Assembly: GCA_012026935.1 (NCBI GenBank) | Contig: VEPI01000134.1 | Coordinates: forward strand, 1 to 50,577 | Source: Melioribacter sp. | Lineage (GTDB): Bacteria; Bacteroidota; Ignavibacteria; Ignavibacteriales; Melioribacteraceae | DNA length: 50,577 nt | Direction of reading: 5' to 3' | In this document: piece by piece, positions 46,541-50,577 of the stretch | Numbering within the stretch: the first letter of the stretch is position 1 | Layout of the letters: the number at the start of each line of letters is the position of its first letter | Program-made: the position numbers and the translations under genes | Notes under the pieces: model-generated | The model's database searches: none | The model's input: only the letters and a program-made list of their open reading frames with translations | What the model was told of the DNA's origin: nothing

Positions 46541-46704
46541 CTACATCTCGTAAAATTTTTCTCCGGACACTCCCGTCATAAATATTTTTTTCACCTCTAC
46601 ATTAGTCGTGCCAAAAAATTTTTTTCCGAAAAATTTTTCGAACAATTTCTTGCATAAAATTTTTAAATGGTTATATTTCAATCAGAAAAAATTAAGGAAA
46701 TGTT
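46541..46704 (+). promoter_or_regulatory. Promoter region of the ATP-grasp/GNAT/kamA operon
   Basis: AT-rich gap with several A-tract/T-tract blocks. A perfect 14-bp palindrome CGAAAAATTTTTCG lies at 46627-46640, a possible operator. TTGCAT (46650-46655) and TATATT (46672-46677) are 16 nt apart and resemble -35/-10; TATATTTC is also one base off TAnnTTTG. AAGGA (46694-46698) is a ribosome site for the first ligase gene. Confidence 0.45.
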
Positions 46705-47781
46705 ATTAGTTCCTATCTACCAAATAAAAAATTAAAAATTGCTCTGACATATAACGTAAAACCGGAAGAAAAAAATTTTTCCGACCGAACATCTCTCACC
46801 CTAAACACAAAATCATCAATTTCTTACAATGAAACTTATGCCGAGTGGGATACTATCGAGACAATTAATGCTCTAAAAGATTCTTTGGAACTGTTTCATG
46901 ACGTAACTTTGATCGAAGCGGATGAAAATGCATTCGAGAAATTTAAAAAGTTACGACCCGATTTAGTTTTTAATGTTGCCGAGTGTGCAAATGGCATAAG
47001 TCGTGAAGCTCAGATACCTGCGATGCTTGACATGTTACAAATTCCTTACACCGGTTCCGATCCATTAACGTTAGCTACATGCCTGGATAAAGCCAGGACG
47101 AAAGAAGTTTTATCATATCACAACATTCCAACTGCAAAATTCCTTCTTGTTGAATCAATTTCCGATTTAGGAAACTTCGATCTGCGTTTTCCGGTAATTG
47201 TTAAACCTGTAGCGGAAGGTTCCGGCAAAGGTATTTTCAATTCTTCACTGTTAAACAATTTGGATAAGCTCAAAGAGAATTTGACTGACAGTCTTAAGAC
47301 TTATAATCAGCCGTTCCTTGTTGAGGAATTCTTACCGGGGCGTGAGTTCACAGTTGCTATTATTGGCAATGGTGAGGATACCGAAGTTTTACCTATTGTA
47401 GAGATAAATTTAAGCGAATTACCGAAAGAATTGGCTCCGATATACTCTTACGAAGCAAAGTGGGTTGTTGATACACGTGATAATCCGCTGAATATCTTTT
47501 CATGCCCGGCCCAAATAGATACAGAACTTCAGAAAAAAATTACAAACATAGCTTTGAAAACTTATAAAGTATTACGATGCCGTGATTGGAGTAGAATTGA
47601 TATCCGCCTTGATGCGAACGGTGAGCCGAATATAATTGAAATTAATCCGCTGCCTGGAATTCTTCCCGACCCGAAAGACAATTCGTGTTTTCCTAAAGCT
47701 GCAAGAACCGGCGGAATGTCTTATGAAGAAATGATAAACAAAGTTTTATTCACTGCAGCAAGAAGATACAGCTTAGTATGA
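46705..47781 (+). CDS. Ddl-like ATP-grasp ligase (first of a tandem pair), start codon uncertain
   Basis: Amino-acid ligase of the D-Ala-D-Ala ligase family, about 358 residues if read from 46705. The N-terminal strand KLKIALTYNVKPEEKNF is encoded from about 46729, well upstream of the first canonical start (TTG, 46885), and the frame is open back to a TAA at 46693. AAGGA at 46694-46698 fits an ATT start at 46705 with 6 nt spacing; alternatively an ATG at 46700 in another frame plus a one-base shift would join. Later motifs: AQIPAMLDMLQIPYTGSDP, VIVKPVAEGSGKGI, FLVEEFLPGREFTVAI, YSYEAKW, IDIRLDANGEPNIIEINPLP. It overlaps the next ligase gene by 4 nt. Substrates unknown; context suggests lysine or beta-lysine chemistry rather than cell-wall D-Ala-D-Ala. 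Confidence 0.78.
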   Translation: MSSYLPNKKLKIALTYNVKPEEKNFSDRTSLTLNTKSSISYNETYAEWDTIETINALKDSLELFHDVTLIEADENAFEKFKKLRPDLVFNVAECANGISREAQIPAMLDMLQIPYTGSDPLTLATCLDKARTKEVLSYHNIPTAKFLLVESISDLGNFDLRFPVIVKPVAEGSGKGIFNSSLLNNLDKLKENLTDSLKTYNQPFLVEEFLPGREFTVAIIGNGEDTEVLPIVEINLSELPKELAPIYSYEAKWVVDTRDNPLNIFSCPAQIDTELQKKITNIALKTYKVLRCRDWSRIDIRLDANGEPNIIEINPLPGILPDPKDNSCFPKAARTGGMSYEEMINKVLFTAARRYSLV

Positions 47782-48836
47782 ATTTCGAACAAAAAATATT
47801 GATCTGTTATAATGAACCGACCAGATATTATGACAATTATCTTGGTAAAAATATATCCGACTCAAAAGATAATGTTGATCTTTCCGAAAGGGAATTTCTA
47901 AAACAGATTGCTTTGATCAAGAAATCCCTATCCAAAAAATATATGAGCGTTGAAACCCTTGCCGTTAACAGCGATATTAAGAGTGCAATCAAAAAAATAT
48001 TAAATTATTCTCCAGATGCCATTTTTAATTTCGTTGAATCGGTTGAGGGCAATACAAACCTGGAAAGTTACATCGCGGGACTTTTTGATATTCTTGGAAT
48101 ACCATACACAGGCAACGGGGCAATCGCTCTTGGCAATTGTCTGATCAAATCCAGAACAAAACAGATTCTTCAATCACATGGTATAAGAACTCCTAAACAT
48201 TTAATTACAGAAGTGAATGAAATCCCGGATAAGGATAAATTCTCTTTAAGATTTCCAGTTATACTAAAACTTGCCCGCGAAGATGCGAGCATAGGCATTT
48301 CAGAATTTTCAGTAGTGCTGAATTTTGATGCTTTGTTGGAAAGATTAAATTATCTCTACACTTCTTTCAACCAGGAAGTTTTGATCGAAGAATACATTGA
48401 GGGCCGCGAATTAAATGTTGCAATTCTTGGTGATAAGGTTCTTCCAATCTCCGAAATCCGTTTTGACGGATTACCTGACGATCTTCCTAAAATAGTTACT
48501 TATGAAGCTAAGTGGTCGCCGGAGAGCACCTACTTCAAACATACAACTCCAAAGTGTCCAACAGATTTAGATGAAAACATAAGACTTAAAGTTGAAAAAA
48601 TGGCACGTGAAGCATTCGAAGCACTAGAATGCAGAGATTATGCCCGCGTTGATATTAGATTAAATCAAAGAAATGTTCCTTACGTTATTGAAGTTAATCC
48701 TAATCCGGATATTTCTCCTGATACAGGATTTATCCGTGCAGCAGCAGCAGCAGGAATTAGTTATGATCAATTGCTTTATACACTTTCAAAGTTCGCATTG
48801 AAGAGAATAGCTTATGATACGCAAGCTGCAAGCTAA
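47778..48836 (+). CDS. Ddl-like ATP-grasp ligase (second of a tandem pair)
   Basis: 352-residue paralogue of the preceding ligase. The N-terminal QKILICYNEPTRYYDN, FDILGIPYTGNGAIALGNCL, VILKLAREDASIGISEF (ATP loop), VLIEEYIEGRELNVAILG, VTYEAKWSPES and YARVDIRLNQRNVPYVIEVN are in family order. The two share YEAKW and the metal-binding end but differ in the loop after the final Asn: NPNPDISPDTG here, NPLPGILPDPKD there, so they may use different acceptors. ATGA overlap upstream and a 23-nt overlap with the GNAT gene show tight coupling. Function beyond ATP-dependent ligation is inferred. Confidence 0.82.
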   Translation: MNFEQKILICYNEPTRYYDNYLGKNISDSKDNVDLSEREFLKQIALIKKSLSKKYMSVETLAVNSDIKSAIKKILNYSPDAIFNFVESVEGNTNLESYIAGLFDILGIPYTGNGAIALGNCLIKSRTKQILQSHGIRTPKHLITEVNEIPDKDKFSLRFPVILKLAREDASIGISEFSVVLNFDALLERLNYLYTSFNQEVLIEEYIEGRELNVAILGDKVLPISEIRFDGLPDDLPKIVTYEAKWSPESTYFKHTTPKCPTDLDENIRLKVEKMAREAFEALECRDYARVDIRLNQRNVPYVIEVNPNPDISPDTGFIRAAAAAGISYDQLLYTLSKFALKRIAYDTQAAS

Positions 48837-49287
48837 CGATAGGGAACAATTAGTCTCTATCATTAATAAAACAGATAATTTTAGTAATGAAGAGAAGAAA
48901 GTTGCTGTTGAATTAATTGATGAAGCGATTGGAAATCCGAATCATGAATATTACAATGTCTTTATTTATGAAAATGATGGAAAGATTGCCGGTTATCATT
49001 GTACAGGTAAGAGAGCGTTAACAGATGGTGTGTTTGATCTGTTCTGGATTGTTGTAGATAATAACGGTCAGAATAAAGGAATAGGAAAACAGTTGTTAGA
49101 TCACGCGGAAAATTTTGTAAAAGAAAATAAAGGAAGATGGATTCTTGCTGAAACATCTTCCAAAGATGTTTACAATGCTACAAGAAATTTTTATATGAGG
49201 AATAATTACTCGATAGTCTCCCAGATAAAAGATTTTTATACAATCAACGATAATTTGATTGTATTTGGTAAATACATAAAAACATAA
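48814..49287 (+). CDS. GNAT-family N-acetyltransferase
   Basis: 157-residue acetyltransferase fold. Motif A, the acetyl-CoA pyrophosphate loop, reads NNGQNKGIGKQLLDHA (about 87-102), preceded by the strand FDLFWIVVD; motif B includes YNATRNFYMRNNYSIV. It overlaps the second ligase by 23 nt and precedes the aminomutase by 27 nt. In the known N-epsilon-acetyl-beta-lysine pathway an acetyltransferase (AblB) works with KamA, but AblB is much longer, so this is not a clear AblB. It may acetylate beta-lysine, a ligated product, or protect the cell from one. Confidence 0.8.
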   Translation: MIRKLQANDREQLVSIINKTDNFSNEEKKVAVELIDEAIGNPNHEYYNVFIYENDGKIAGYHCTGKRALTDGVFDLFWIVVDNNGQNKGIGKQLLDHAENFVKENKGRWILAETSSKDVYNATRNFYMRNNYSIVSQIKDFYTINDNLIVFGKYIKT

Positions 49288-49314
49288 AAAGGAATAATAT
49301 AAAGGGTAACTATC

Positions 49315-50526
49315 ATGGAACTCTGGCAGCAAATGGTTAGAGACAGTGTTCACTCTGTTGATCAACTTGTGGAAAAATTTGGGATTGACAGAACAGTAGC
49401 AGAAGGTTTGGATGAATTTTTTCAAGCTCGTATAAATCCATACTATCTTAGCCTAATCCGATATCCGGGTGATCCGATCTGGAGACAATGCGTACCGGAT
49501 AAAGCAGAATTGGATGATCTGGAAGGATTTGAAGATCCGCTTCAAGAAGATAGAATGAGCCCTGTTCCTAATATTACGCATAGATATCCCGATCGGGCAT
49601 TATTCCTAACAACAAGCCAATGCGGAATGTATTGCCGTTTCTGCACTAGAAAAAGAAAAGTAGGTAACTCAGATAAAATTTCGATGAAAGAACTTGAATC
49701 GGCTTTTAAGTATCTCGAAAAGCATACTGAAATCCGCGATGTAATTATGTCCGGCGGCGATCCGTTAATGCTTACAGATGTTATGCTTGAAAAAATATTA
49801 AAGAGATTGAGACAAATACCACATATAGAAATAATCCGGATAGGTTCAAAAATGCCGTGCGTTCTTCCACATCGTATCACCCCTAAATTGGTTGAGATGA
49901 TCAAGAAGTATCACCCGATTTATGTTAACACGCACTTCAATCATCCATGGGAAATTACTCCTGAAAGCACCAAAGCTTGCGAGATGCTTGCCAATGCAGG
50001 AATACCGGTAAGTAACCAGGCAGTTCTAATGAAAGGAGTAAATGACGATGCTGAAGTAATGAGAGAGCTCTTTACGAAACTTCTCAAGATAAGAGTTAGA
50101 CCTTACTATTTATATATGGCTGATGAAACACGCGGAGCTAATCATTTTAGAACTTCACTTGAAACCGGTCTGGAAATTATGCAGAAACTACGCGGTTATA
50201 CAAGCGGACTTGCAATACCTCATTTTGTTATTGATGCACCGGGAGGCGGCGGTAAGATACCGATTCTCCCTCAATACGTTCTGCACCGCGATGAAGATAG
50301 AGTTGTAATGAAGAATTATAAAGGTGAGATTTTTGTTTACCGTGAAGCGCACAACGGCGAAGTTAAACCTGATTTGAAAATTCCAATTGAATTAGTTGAT
50401 AAGAAAAACGGTAACGGTTCTAATGGTAATGGATCGAACGGAAATGGTTCCAATGGATCATCCAAAAAACCAAGAAACTATAAAGAGAAGGTTGAAGTTA
50501 CCGAAGTTGCAACAAGCAATAATTGA
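49315..50526 (+). CDS. kamA: Lysine 2,3-aminomutase (radical SAM, PLP)
   Basis: Converts L-lysine to L-beta-lysine using SAM, a [4Fe-4S] cluster and PLP. It has 403 residues. LFLTTSQCGMYCRFCTRKRK gives the cluster cysteines C103, C107 and C110; VMSGGDPLM and RIGSKMPCVLPHRITP follow. The PLP lysine is K314 in DAPGGGGKIP. Asp270 (YMADETRG) and Asp307 (VIDAPG) match the two aspartates that bind the lysine epsilon-amino group in Clostridium KAM, with the same 37-residue spacing, so lysine is the likely substrate, not glutamate. The C-terminal zinc cysteines of clostridial KAM are absent; instead three NGNGS repeats lead to a charged end. AAAGGG lies 8 nt before the ATG. It ends the ligase/GNAT operon. 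Confidence 0.92.
   Translation: MELWQQMVRDSVHSVDQLVEKFGIDRTVAEGLDEFFQARINPYYLSLIRYPGDPIWRQCVPDKAELDDLEGFEDPLQEDRMSPVPNITHRYPDRALFLTTSQCGMYCRFCTRKRKVGNSDKISMKELESAFKYLEKHTEIRDVIMSGGDPLMLTDVMLEKILKRLRQIPHIEIIRIGSKMPCVLPHRITPKLVEMIKKYHPIYVNTHFNHPWEITPESTKACEMLANAGIPVSNQAVLMKGVNDDAEVMRELFTKLLKIRVRPYYLYMADETRGANHFRTSLETGLEIMQKLRGYTSGLAIPHFVIDAPGGGGKIPILPQYVLHRDEDRVVMKNYKGEIFVYREAHNGEVKPDLKIPIELVDKKNGNGSNGNGSNGNGSNGSSKKPRNYKEKVEVTEVATSNN
50407..50463 (+). repeat. In-gene 15-nt tandem repeat encoding NGNGS units
   Basis: Three consecutive copies of a unit coding Asn-Gly-Asn-Gly-Ser and a partial fourth (NGSS), with variable third codon bases, in the kamA C-terminal linker. Confidence 0.85.
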
Positions 50527-50549: not shown

Positions 50550-50577
50550 AAAAAACCCCGCATAAGCGGGGTTTTTT
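50550..50577 (+). terminator. Strong intrinsic terminator after kamA
   Basis: ACCCCGC (50555-50561) pairs with GCGGGGT (50566-50572) around the loop ATAA, extended by A and T tracts on each side; six T end the window. With flanking A tract the structure can work in both directions. Confidence 0.95.

Follow-up and report, generated by a model that had tools for sequence, protein, structure and literature searches.

A recurrent cassette of two Ddl-fold ATP-grasp ligases, a GNAT acetyltransferase and a lysine-2,3-aminomutase-type enzyme: a candidate route to acetylated beta-lysine peptides

Four tightly linked genes at the end of a Melioribacter contig

The window analysed here is a stretch of 50,577 nucleotides (50.6 kb) of Melioribacter sp. 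(contig VEPI01000134.1 of assembly GCA_012026935.1). At its end, four genes of the forward strand stand in a row: ligA, ligB, gnat and kamA (Table 1). Pfam and NCBIfam assign them to two Dala_Dala_lig_C/ATP-grasp proteins, one GNAT protein and one KamA radical SAM protein. The original prediction, made from the DNA letters, had described four overlapping or tightly spaced genes with these functions, and both the coordinates and the two family databases agree with it: ligA and ligB overlap by 4 nucleotides (nt) and ligB and gnat by 23 nt. Overlaps are also the rule elsewhere, at 67 of 78 ligA-ligB junctions and 68 of 75 ligB-gnat junctions.

Table 1. Features of the four-gene locus (positions in the window; aa, amino acids)
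Feature	Position	Strand	Description
Bacteroidota-type promoter motif	46650-46679	+	TTG-N19-TATATTTC, upstream of ligA
Shine-Dalgarno site	46694-46698	+	AAGGA, 6 nt 5' of the ligA ATT
ligA	46705-47781	+	Ddl-fold ATP-grasp ligase, 358 aa, first codon ATT (non-canonical)
ligB	47778-48836	+	second Ddl-fold ATP-grasp ligase, 352 aa
gnat	48814-49287	+	GNAT N-acetyltransferase, 157 aa, not AblB
kamA	49315-50526	+	lysine-2,3-aminomutase-type radical SAM/pyridoxal phosphate (PLP) enzyme, 403 aa, Asn/Gly/Ser-rich tail
Intrinsic terminator	50550-50577	+	hairpin with T run, from folding energy

The four genes recur as a unit

The original prediction had proposed that this neighbourhood be looked for in other genomes, and the search was rewarding: all four families are present at 105 of 121 loci, in two different orders (ligA-ligB-gnat-kamA at 96 loci and kamA first at nine), and the set also persists where its genes are dispersed. 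Two loci with no ligase in view (L246 and L247) were left out of this count. The other 16 loci are cut by contig ends, carry lone LigB relatives (L042, L045 and L061), have ligases and GNAT without an adjacent kamA, or have a GNAT with no ligase in view. KamA is found on another contig of the same genome for three loci with no adjacent kamA (L221, L240 and L244) and for one at a contig end (L218).

A scan with LigB, in which 80 loci were examined of 157 relatives, gave mostly loci with the order ligA-ligB-gnat-kamA, usually behind recG. By title they are Ignavibacteria, Melioribacter, Stygiobacter and similar groups, or have less specific names (Bacteroidetes, Chlorobiaceae, bacterium); one Acidobacteria and two Aminicenantes metagenome-assembled genomes (MAGs) are also among them. 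Stygiobacter electus, a relative that is in culture, has the set at L016. We assume that the window's phylum is Bacteroidota and that G298, in which the Aminicenantes locus L061 lies, belongs to Acidobacteriota by the GTDB taxonomy. In this second phylum, a GNAT profile (E ≤ 1e-15) matched 61 of 347 genomes at 62 places. Of these places, 41 were read as neighbourhoods and 29 have all four genes; with L182, this makes thirty.

Neighbouring gene families were surveyed at 70 loci for which 3 kb or more of flanking sequence was available to either side; these loci form three groups. There is no fifth gene: in no two of the three groups does another family reach 30% of the loci. recG and gpsA are found at none of 42 loci of the second phylum, which makes the recG synteny a feature of the window's lineage and the four genes the shared core.

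Presence and absence of the genes point in the same direction. LigA with at least 430 bits is present in 53 of 296 genomes from the phylum of the window, and 52 of these 53 have KamA with at least 426 bits (more than 500 bits in 51; the KamA of the other one, G133, is cut by a contig end); this count took in all rows of at least 300 bits. The sole LigA genome without KamA is G047, and its LigB match is truncated, which fits a contig end. KamA of more than 500 bits is found in no genome that lacks LigA. LigA is present in 23 of the 27 genomes listed for the window's order and in 44 of the 73 listed for its class, lists in which genomes without any ligase match may be missing. The genes are scattered in nine LigA genomes (families f37, f22 and f49), each of which also encodes KamA, the GNAT and a second ligase; this second ligase scores 216-252 bits and is LigB-like in both genomes that were checked. 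In the second phylum, 52 of the 61 GNAT genomes have KamA with at least 230 bits, versus 12.3 expected by chance (uncorrected for phylogeny), and in 45 genomes KamA and GNAT are at most 6 kb apart.

The distances between the sequences of the four proteins correlate with each other (Mantel r 0.82-0.95 for the 101 of 105 loci that passed a length filter; none of 999 permutations was as high), within groups too, and shared vertical descent contributes to this correlation. In phylogenetic trees, the KamA proteins of the first gene order, scattered-gene genomes included, form one clade (100/99), and LigA of the second order groups with ligases that adjoin a different type of KamA in the window's phylum, the Gln type described below (100/98). 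Judging from these trees, the set would either be of great age or have come together at least twice, with different KamA proteins, and either history speaks for a functional link.

The linkage could have a trivial cause, namely that the four genes are neighbours by history and serve separate pathways. Some of it is indeed inherited, as the recG neighbourhood is syntenic in Ignavibacteria-type loci, but a set that recurs in another phylum without recG and gpsA, in two orders, and that persists when dispersed, makes this explanation highly improbable. We are confident that the four genes belong to one shared pathway.

A side observation concerns the scattered genes. At L115, L116, L117 and L118, a small gene of 122-159 aa lies 5' of ligA and has a membrane-like segment by eye; two such genes were scanned and one gave a sub-threshold match to a BON domain.

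KamA resembles lysine 2,3-aminomutase

The only solved relative found for KamA is the lysine 2,3-aminomutase (LAM) of C. subterminale (2a5h, E 2e-121). By ungapped row count, D270, D307 and K314 of KamA align to D293, D330 and K337 of 2a5h, which we take to be the lysine-binding aspartates (Asp293 and Asp330) and the PLP lysine (Lys337) of LAM. All three residues are invariant in an alignment of 25 KamA rows, as was to be hoped from the original prediction, which had picked them out as lysine-specific aspartates and PLP lysine; both aspartates are also kept in the readable scattered-gene genomes and in the second-order clusters L181 and L182. The radical SAM motif CxxxCxxC is present (C103-C107-C110). 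The protein scores 306.9 bits with the subfamily model TIGR00238, well over the cut-off of 199.2, and is the single KamA match in the window's genome. The residues and the solved relative suggest that its product is beta-lysine. As a marker of lysine fermentation, lysine 5,6-aminomutase (PF09043) was looked for in the genome and gave no match; the control genomes gave no match either.

KamA proteins of the relatives are between 363 and 423 aa long. In the window, the C-terminal tail is an Asn/Gly/Ser-rich repeat, encoded at about 50410-50470.

KamA and GNAT fit neither of two known beta-lysine systems. Beta-lysylation of elongation factor P (EF-P) was considered and rejected: the KamA score of 247 bits does not reach the EpmB cut-off of 369.3, and no EpmA over the cut-off was found in the genome (best TIGR00462 match 244.5 versus 286.9, in a 518-aa frame; 2 of 14 control genomes were over the cut-off). 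The second system is AblA/AblB, in which the acetyltransferase AblB acts with a LAM. As noticed in the original prediction, the GNAT is too short for a typical AblB: it has 157 aa, and the AblB model TIGR03827 has 266 positions. This model (cut-off 205.1) is not among the GNAT matches at E ≤ 0.001 and has no match in the window's genome; the control search was positive in 5 of 14 genomes, in three of them over the cut-off. A classical AblA/AblB pair was thus rejected. By profile, the GNAT is nearest among solved proteins to 2r7h, a putative D-alanine N-acetyltransferase by name.

A variant of AblA/AblB can still be imagined, in which KamA and GNAT make the compatible solute N-epsilon-acetyl-beta-lysine and the ligases are a side branch. 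A LAM-type KamA and a GNAT do share the operon, and AblA/AblB operons are known (PMC1224877), also from Bacillus. Such a variant would have to do with a GNAT that is not matched by TIGR03827, in a genome in which no AblB was found; moreover, LigA goes with KamA even if the genes are scattered, and both ligases are present at all 105 four-gene loci. We regard it as improbable. The shared pathway of two ligases, GNAT and KamA that the original prediction had set apart from AblA/AblB is supported, by its wide co-occurrence and by a GNAT that is not AblB. A compatible solute had been favoured there on account of adjoining stress-type genes; the genes just upstream of ligA resemble plsY, gpsA and recG by eye and look like housekeeping genes instead, nothing else speaks specifically for this idea, and no link to salt, which was not specifically sought, was seen.

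LigA and LigB have the Ddl fold and are distinct from Ddl

LigA and LigB are matched by Dala_Dala_lig_C and further ATP-grasp models, and their best NCBIfam matches are D-alanine--D-alanine ligase models. The scores are below the Ddl cut-offs of TIGR01205 (245.65) and NF002378 (243): LigA has 160 and 189.9 bits, LigB 140.6 and 161.2 bits. The N-terminal Ddl domain PF01820 was found in neither protein at E ≤ 0.001. AlphaFold models (mean pLDDT 83 for LigA and 89 for LigB) superpose best with Ddl chains in VIA-align (LigA: Z 34.1, root mean square deviation (rmsd) 2.4, 301 aligned residues; LigB: Z 32.9, rmsd 2.3, 307 aligned residues). Only Ddl-type and Van-type chains were among the best 50 matches listed in the fold searches, and a resemblance to other ATP-grasp ligases is possible too.

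Both ligases retain the Arg, Asp, Glu and Asn that are catalytic in Ddl; in LigA they are R297, D299, E312 and N314, which align to R255, D257, E270 and N272 of Ddl 1iov and are invariant in the LigA alignment. The changes are found on the side of the substrate. Tyr216 of Ddl is a Trp in LigA, and likewise in the YEAKW motif of LigB, and the HGxxGED motif of the genome's own Ddl is replaced by FNxxE. In the column of the Ddl His, 7 of the 8 non-Ddl rows aligned have a Glu; the eighth, a Bradyrhizobium protein, has a Tyr. These exchanges point weakly to a basic or diamino substrate.

In a tree of 58 rows, LigA, LigB and their relatives are separated from the two Ddl rows with full support. A canonical Ddl is encoded elsewhere in the genome (L124, PF01820 with 77.6 bits). 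The original prediction had regarded a shared pathway as unlikely if the ligases act only as D-Ala-D-Ala ligases, but the family tests give another picture: a role of LigA or LigB as the cell's D-Ala-D-Ala ligase was rejected on the missed cut-offs, the lack of PF01820, the separate clade and the presence of the canonical enzyme.

The Ddl fold leaves room for a related explanation: the cassette could make a component of the cell envelope (a beta-lysine cross-bridge, a lipid head group or a teichoic-like decoration) and not a free peptide. At two of the four scattered-gene loci read (L259 and L262), the GNAT overlaps a following gene that looks murI-like by eye, which would be in line with this. 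We consider an envelope component quite unlikely, given that the cassette has no conserved neighbour across the three locus groups, hence none for wall synthesis or export, and that the canonical Ddl is present.

The window's genome has a third, LigB-like ligase (L120:926-1996, G000:C156), as does G220 (L122:5627-6664), and in both genomes it adjoins a divergent gene with weak Peptidase C39 and BtrH_N matches. Two proteins of 640-656 aa (L138:5815-7785 and L139:6089-8011) have an additional N-terminal region ahead of a LigA/LigB-like ligase. The lone LigB relatives at L042, L045 and L061, which are those of the Acidobacteria and Aminicenantes MAGs, have 50-54% identity to LigB of the window and have a nitropropane-dioxygenase-like gene (by eye) within a few kb. 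L042 and L045 nest within the Ignavibacteria LigB clade, which suggests horizontal transfer.

A conserved non-canonical start codon of ligA

The ligA gene of the window has no ATG, GTG or TTG 5' of its conserved N-terminus; the frame opens at the ATT at 46705, behind AAGGA. The first ATG, GTG or TTG in frame is 60 codons downstream, past the first beta-strand of the LigA model, and gene callers would therefore probably shorten the gene. A frameshift or an upstream ATG as start was rejected: the ATG at 46700 does not share the frame of ligA, and close relatives such as L005, L006 and L014 differ at this position.

To see how far this start is conserved, we surveyed 70 ligA genes of the close group (window counted), with the eight most distant loci (L074-L081) left out beforehand; four truncated genes and two without an anchor were removed and 64 were assessed. 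A non-canonical start with a Shine-Dalgarno site is present in 58 of these 64 Ignavibacteria-type genes (ATT in 46, ATC in six and ATA in six), 9-11 codons ahead of the conserved block and exactly 11 codons ahead in 51. A canonical start with a Shine-Dalgarno site was found in none of the 64. The stretch has no ATG in 57 of the genes and none of ATG, GTG and TTG in 22; the remaining genes have GTG or TTG codons, or in seven cases ATG, all without a Shine-Dalgarno site. Six of the assessed genes have no signal, and three of these have an ATG (L029, L037 and L040). A few ligA genes could thus still use a GTG, TTG or ATG that lacks a Shine-Dalgarno site.

The other genes of the cassette mostly have ATG at the aligned start (ligB at 65 of 81 loci, gnat at 60 of 75 and kamA at 74 of 75), and ATG is likewise the first codon of most of the ligA genes that were read in the second phylum: the AUU-type start is a trait of the lineage of the window's relatives. 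Conservation of an AUU-type start is unusual: the E. coli genes reported to use AUU are infC and pcnB alone (PMC9410913). By analogy with these two genes, for which this is described, the start suggests that initiation of ligA may be weak or sensitive to initiation factor 3 (IF3).

Promoter and terminator

A single promoter and a single terminator had been predicted for the four genes. A sigma-70 promoter was rejected: a scan with the sigma-70 consensus gave 15 matches versus 15.4 in shuffled sequences, which is chance level. A Bacteroidota-type motif fits instead. Its consensus, TTG-N17..22-TAnnTTT[GC], was picked after some of the sequences had been viewed; it is present upstream of 39 of 66 ligA genes (window counted), with a mean of 2.25 and a maximum of 7 in dinucleotide shuffles, and ends 22-31 nt 5' of the ligA start in 33 of the 39 regions that have it. 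The strong terminator hairpin behind kamA has a folding energy of -18.1 kcal/mol (z -4.2), and similar hairpins are found 3' of kamA in L002, L003 and L004. The terminator consensus scan did not list the hairpin, perhaps for the reason that the window ends there.

KamA-ligase pairs in other contexts

KamA also occurs with related ligases outside the cassette. At least nine additional genomes in the phylum of the window, perhaps Rhodothermia, have KamA less than 270 bp from a related ligase (G003, G008, G030, G050, G058, G155, G242, G254 and G293). Three of them were searched for the GNAT (E ≤ 1e-10): G003 and G242 have none and G254 has a distant one with 92 bits.

Similar pairs are present on plasmids. 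A Thioflavicoccus plasmid has a diaminobutyrate transaminase, SbnA, an ornithine-cyclodeaminase-type protein and a ligase in a row, followed by KamA on the opposite strand. On a Bradyrhizobium plasmid (L160:2213-6978), a divergent KamA annotated as lysine 2,3-aminomutase, a gamma-glutamyltransferase, a seven-transmembrane protein and an ATP-grasp ligase are in a row. The four-gene set was not found in the KamA neighbourhoods on plasmids of Rhizobium, Bradyrhizobium LCT2, Deinococcus and Leptospira. GNAT matches on plasmids come from eight records, and the one neighbourhood that was read, in Aquisphaera, has no annotated ligase close by.

A proposed pathway to an acetylated beta-lysine peptide

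The gene families, the key residues, the Ddl fold of the models, the linkage and co-occurrence of the genes, and the distinction from Ddl, AblB and EpmA were seen directly. From these we infer a pathway, including its beta-lysine product, the ligase that uses beta-lysine, the amino acids joined to it, the sequence of the reactions, the position of the acetyl group and the biological role. KamA would convert L-lysine to beta-lysine. LigA would activate a carboxylate as acyl phosphate and join beta-lysine to another amino acid; our guess that LigA is the ligase that uses beta-lysine is based on its close tracking of KamA in the window's phylum. LigB would add a further unit or make a second amide bond, and the GNAT would acetylate an amino group and thereby cap the product.

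It is plausible, as had been proposed, that further amino acids are ligated to beta-lysine and that an acetyl group is added, and the product of the cassette is probably a short N-acetylated beta-lysine peptide, made without a non-ribosomal peptide synthetase (NRPS). More tentatively, and with somewhat less than even confidence, we propose that this product, a di- or tripeptide of beta-lysine with an acetyl cap, belongs to a new and widespread class of primary metabolites, assembled by a dedicated pair of ATP-grasp ligases, near-core in the window's order and present in part of a second phylum, with the first ligase controlled at translation by the AUU-type start in the window's lineage.

Several observations weigh against the acetylated beta-lysine peptide. 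Not all carriers have the full set: two genomes have ligases and GNAT and no KamA at E ≤ 1e-60 (G324 at L237, and G540 at L226, which is cut by the contig start), six of 42 GNAT loci read have a GNAT with no ligase in view, and 18 of 70 second-phylum genomes with KamA have no GNAT. In the window's phylum, 15 of the 67 genomes with KamA of at least 426 bits lack LigA; all 15 score 430-466 bits, which means that other types of KamA occur without LigA. KamA of the second gene order is outside the clade of the first order, on long branches that the tree program flagged as unsure. Among seven LigA-like neighbourhoods on plasmids, KamA is annotated in two and not in four, which are rhizobial; one is an unannotated record. 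The 70 loci surveyed share no conserved exporter or peptidase next to the cassette.

The remaining objections concern the substrate of KamA. With 454.1 bits, KamA is below the cut-off of 525.4 of the AblA equivalog model TIGR03820, and an amino acid other than lysine is therefore possible. In addition, the first lysine-binding Asp is a Gln in nine aligned KamA proteins of the window's phylum (L135, L136, L137, L140, L142, L143, L150, L152 and L153), several of which lie beside a Ddl-fold ligase: the pairing is not always about lysine, and the substrate may differ. The cassette could then make an acetylated small peptide from an amino acid other than lysine. We consider this unlikely for the four-gene loci, since both aspartates are kept in the 25 aligned rows, the readable scattered-gene genomes, L181 and L182, and since the sole solved relative found is a LAM. 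A beta-lysine peptide is thus the reading that we prefer.

Significance and comparison with known systems

If true, a peptide with a beta-amino acid is made in two phyla or more with neither the ribosome nor an NRPS, and it is part of conserved metabolism and not a strain-specific antibiotic. The four families are a compact, testable list of parts. Such a pathway can hide behind cell-wall names, as the best matches of the ligases are D-Ala-D-Ala ligase models and the GNAT is close to a putative D-alanine N-acetyltransferase. No description of the four-gene combination or its metabolite was found in the open-licence PubMed Central (PMC) literature that was searched.

Each of the known systems shares some parts with the cassette. 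AblA/AblB likewise combines a GNAT with a LAM-type KamA in a single operon; it differs in the GNAT family and in the two ATP-grasp ligases of the window. EpmA/EpmB also uses a KamA-family enzyme to make beta-lysine, but the EpmA and EpmB thresholds are not reached here. The Ddl and Van ligases share the fold and the ATP-grasp core with LigA and LigB, while their cut-offs, PF01820, the HGxxGED motif, Tyr216 and their place in the tree distinguish them. The synthesis of N-acetylglutaminylglutamine amide relies on a GNAT together with an ATP-grasp domain, which yield an acetylated dipeptide; KamA is not known to take part. PMC1224877 mentions this amide as a compound.

A further group is dapdiamide, TabS and negamycin, where ATP-grasp ligases make small amides independently of NRPS (PMC12154649 and PMC12568646). 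The negamycin cluster combines an ATP-grasp gene with beta-lysine genes as well, according to PMC12154649, and is a chemical precedent. What differs here is that two Ddl-type ligases and a GNAT belong to a conserved set of four genes that has no further conserved neighbours. Each of the enzyme families is known, and the cassette would be a form of NRPS-independent peptide synthesis by ATP-grasp ligases.

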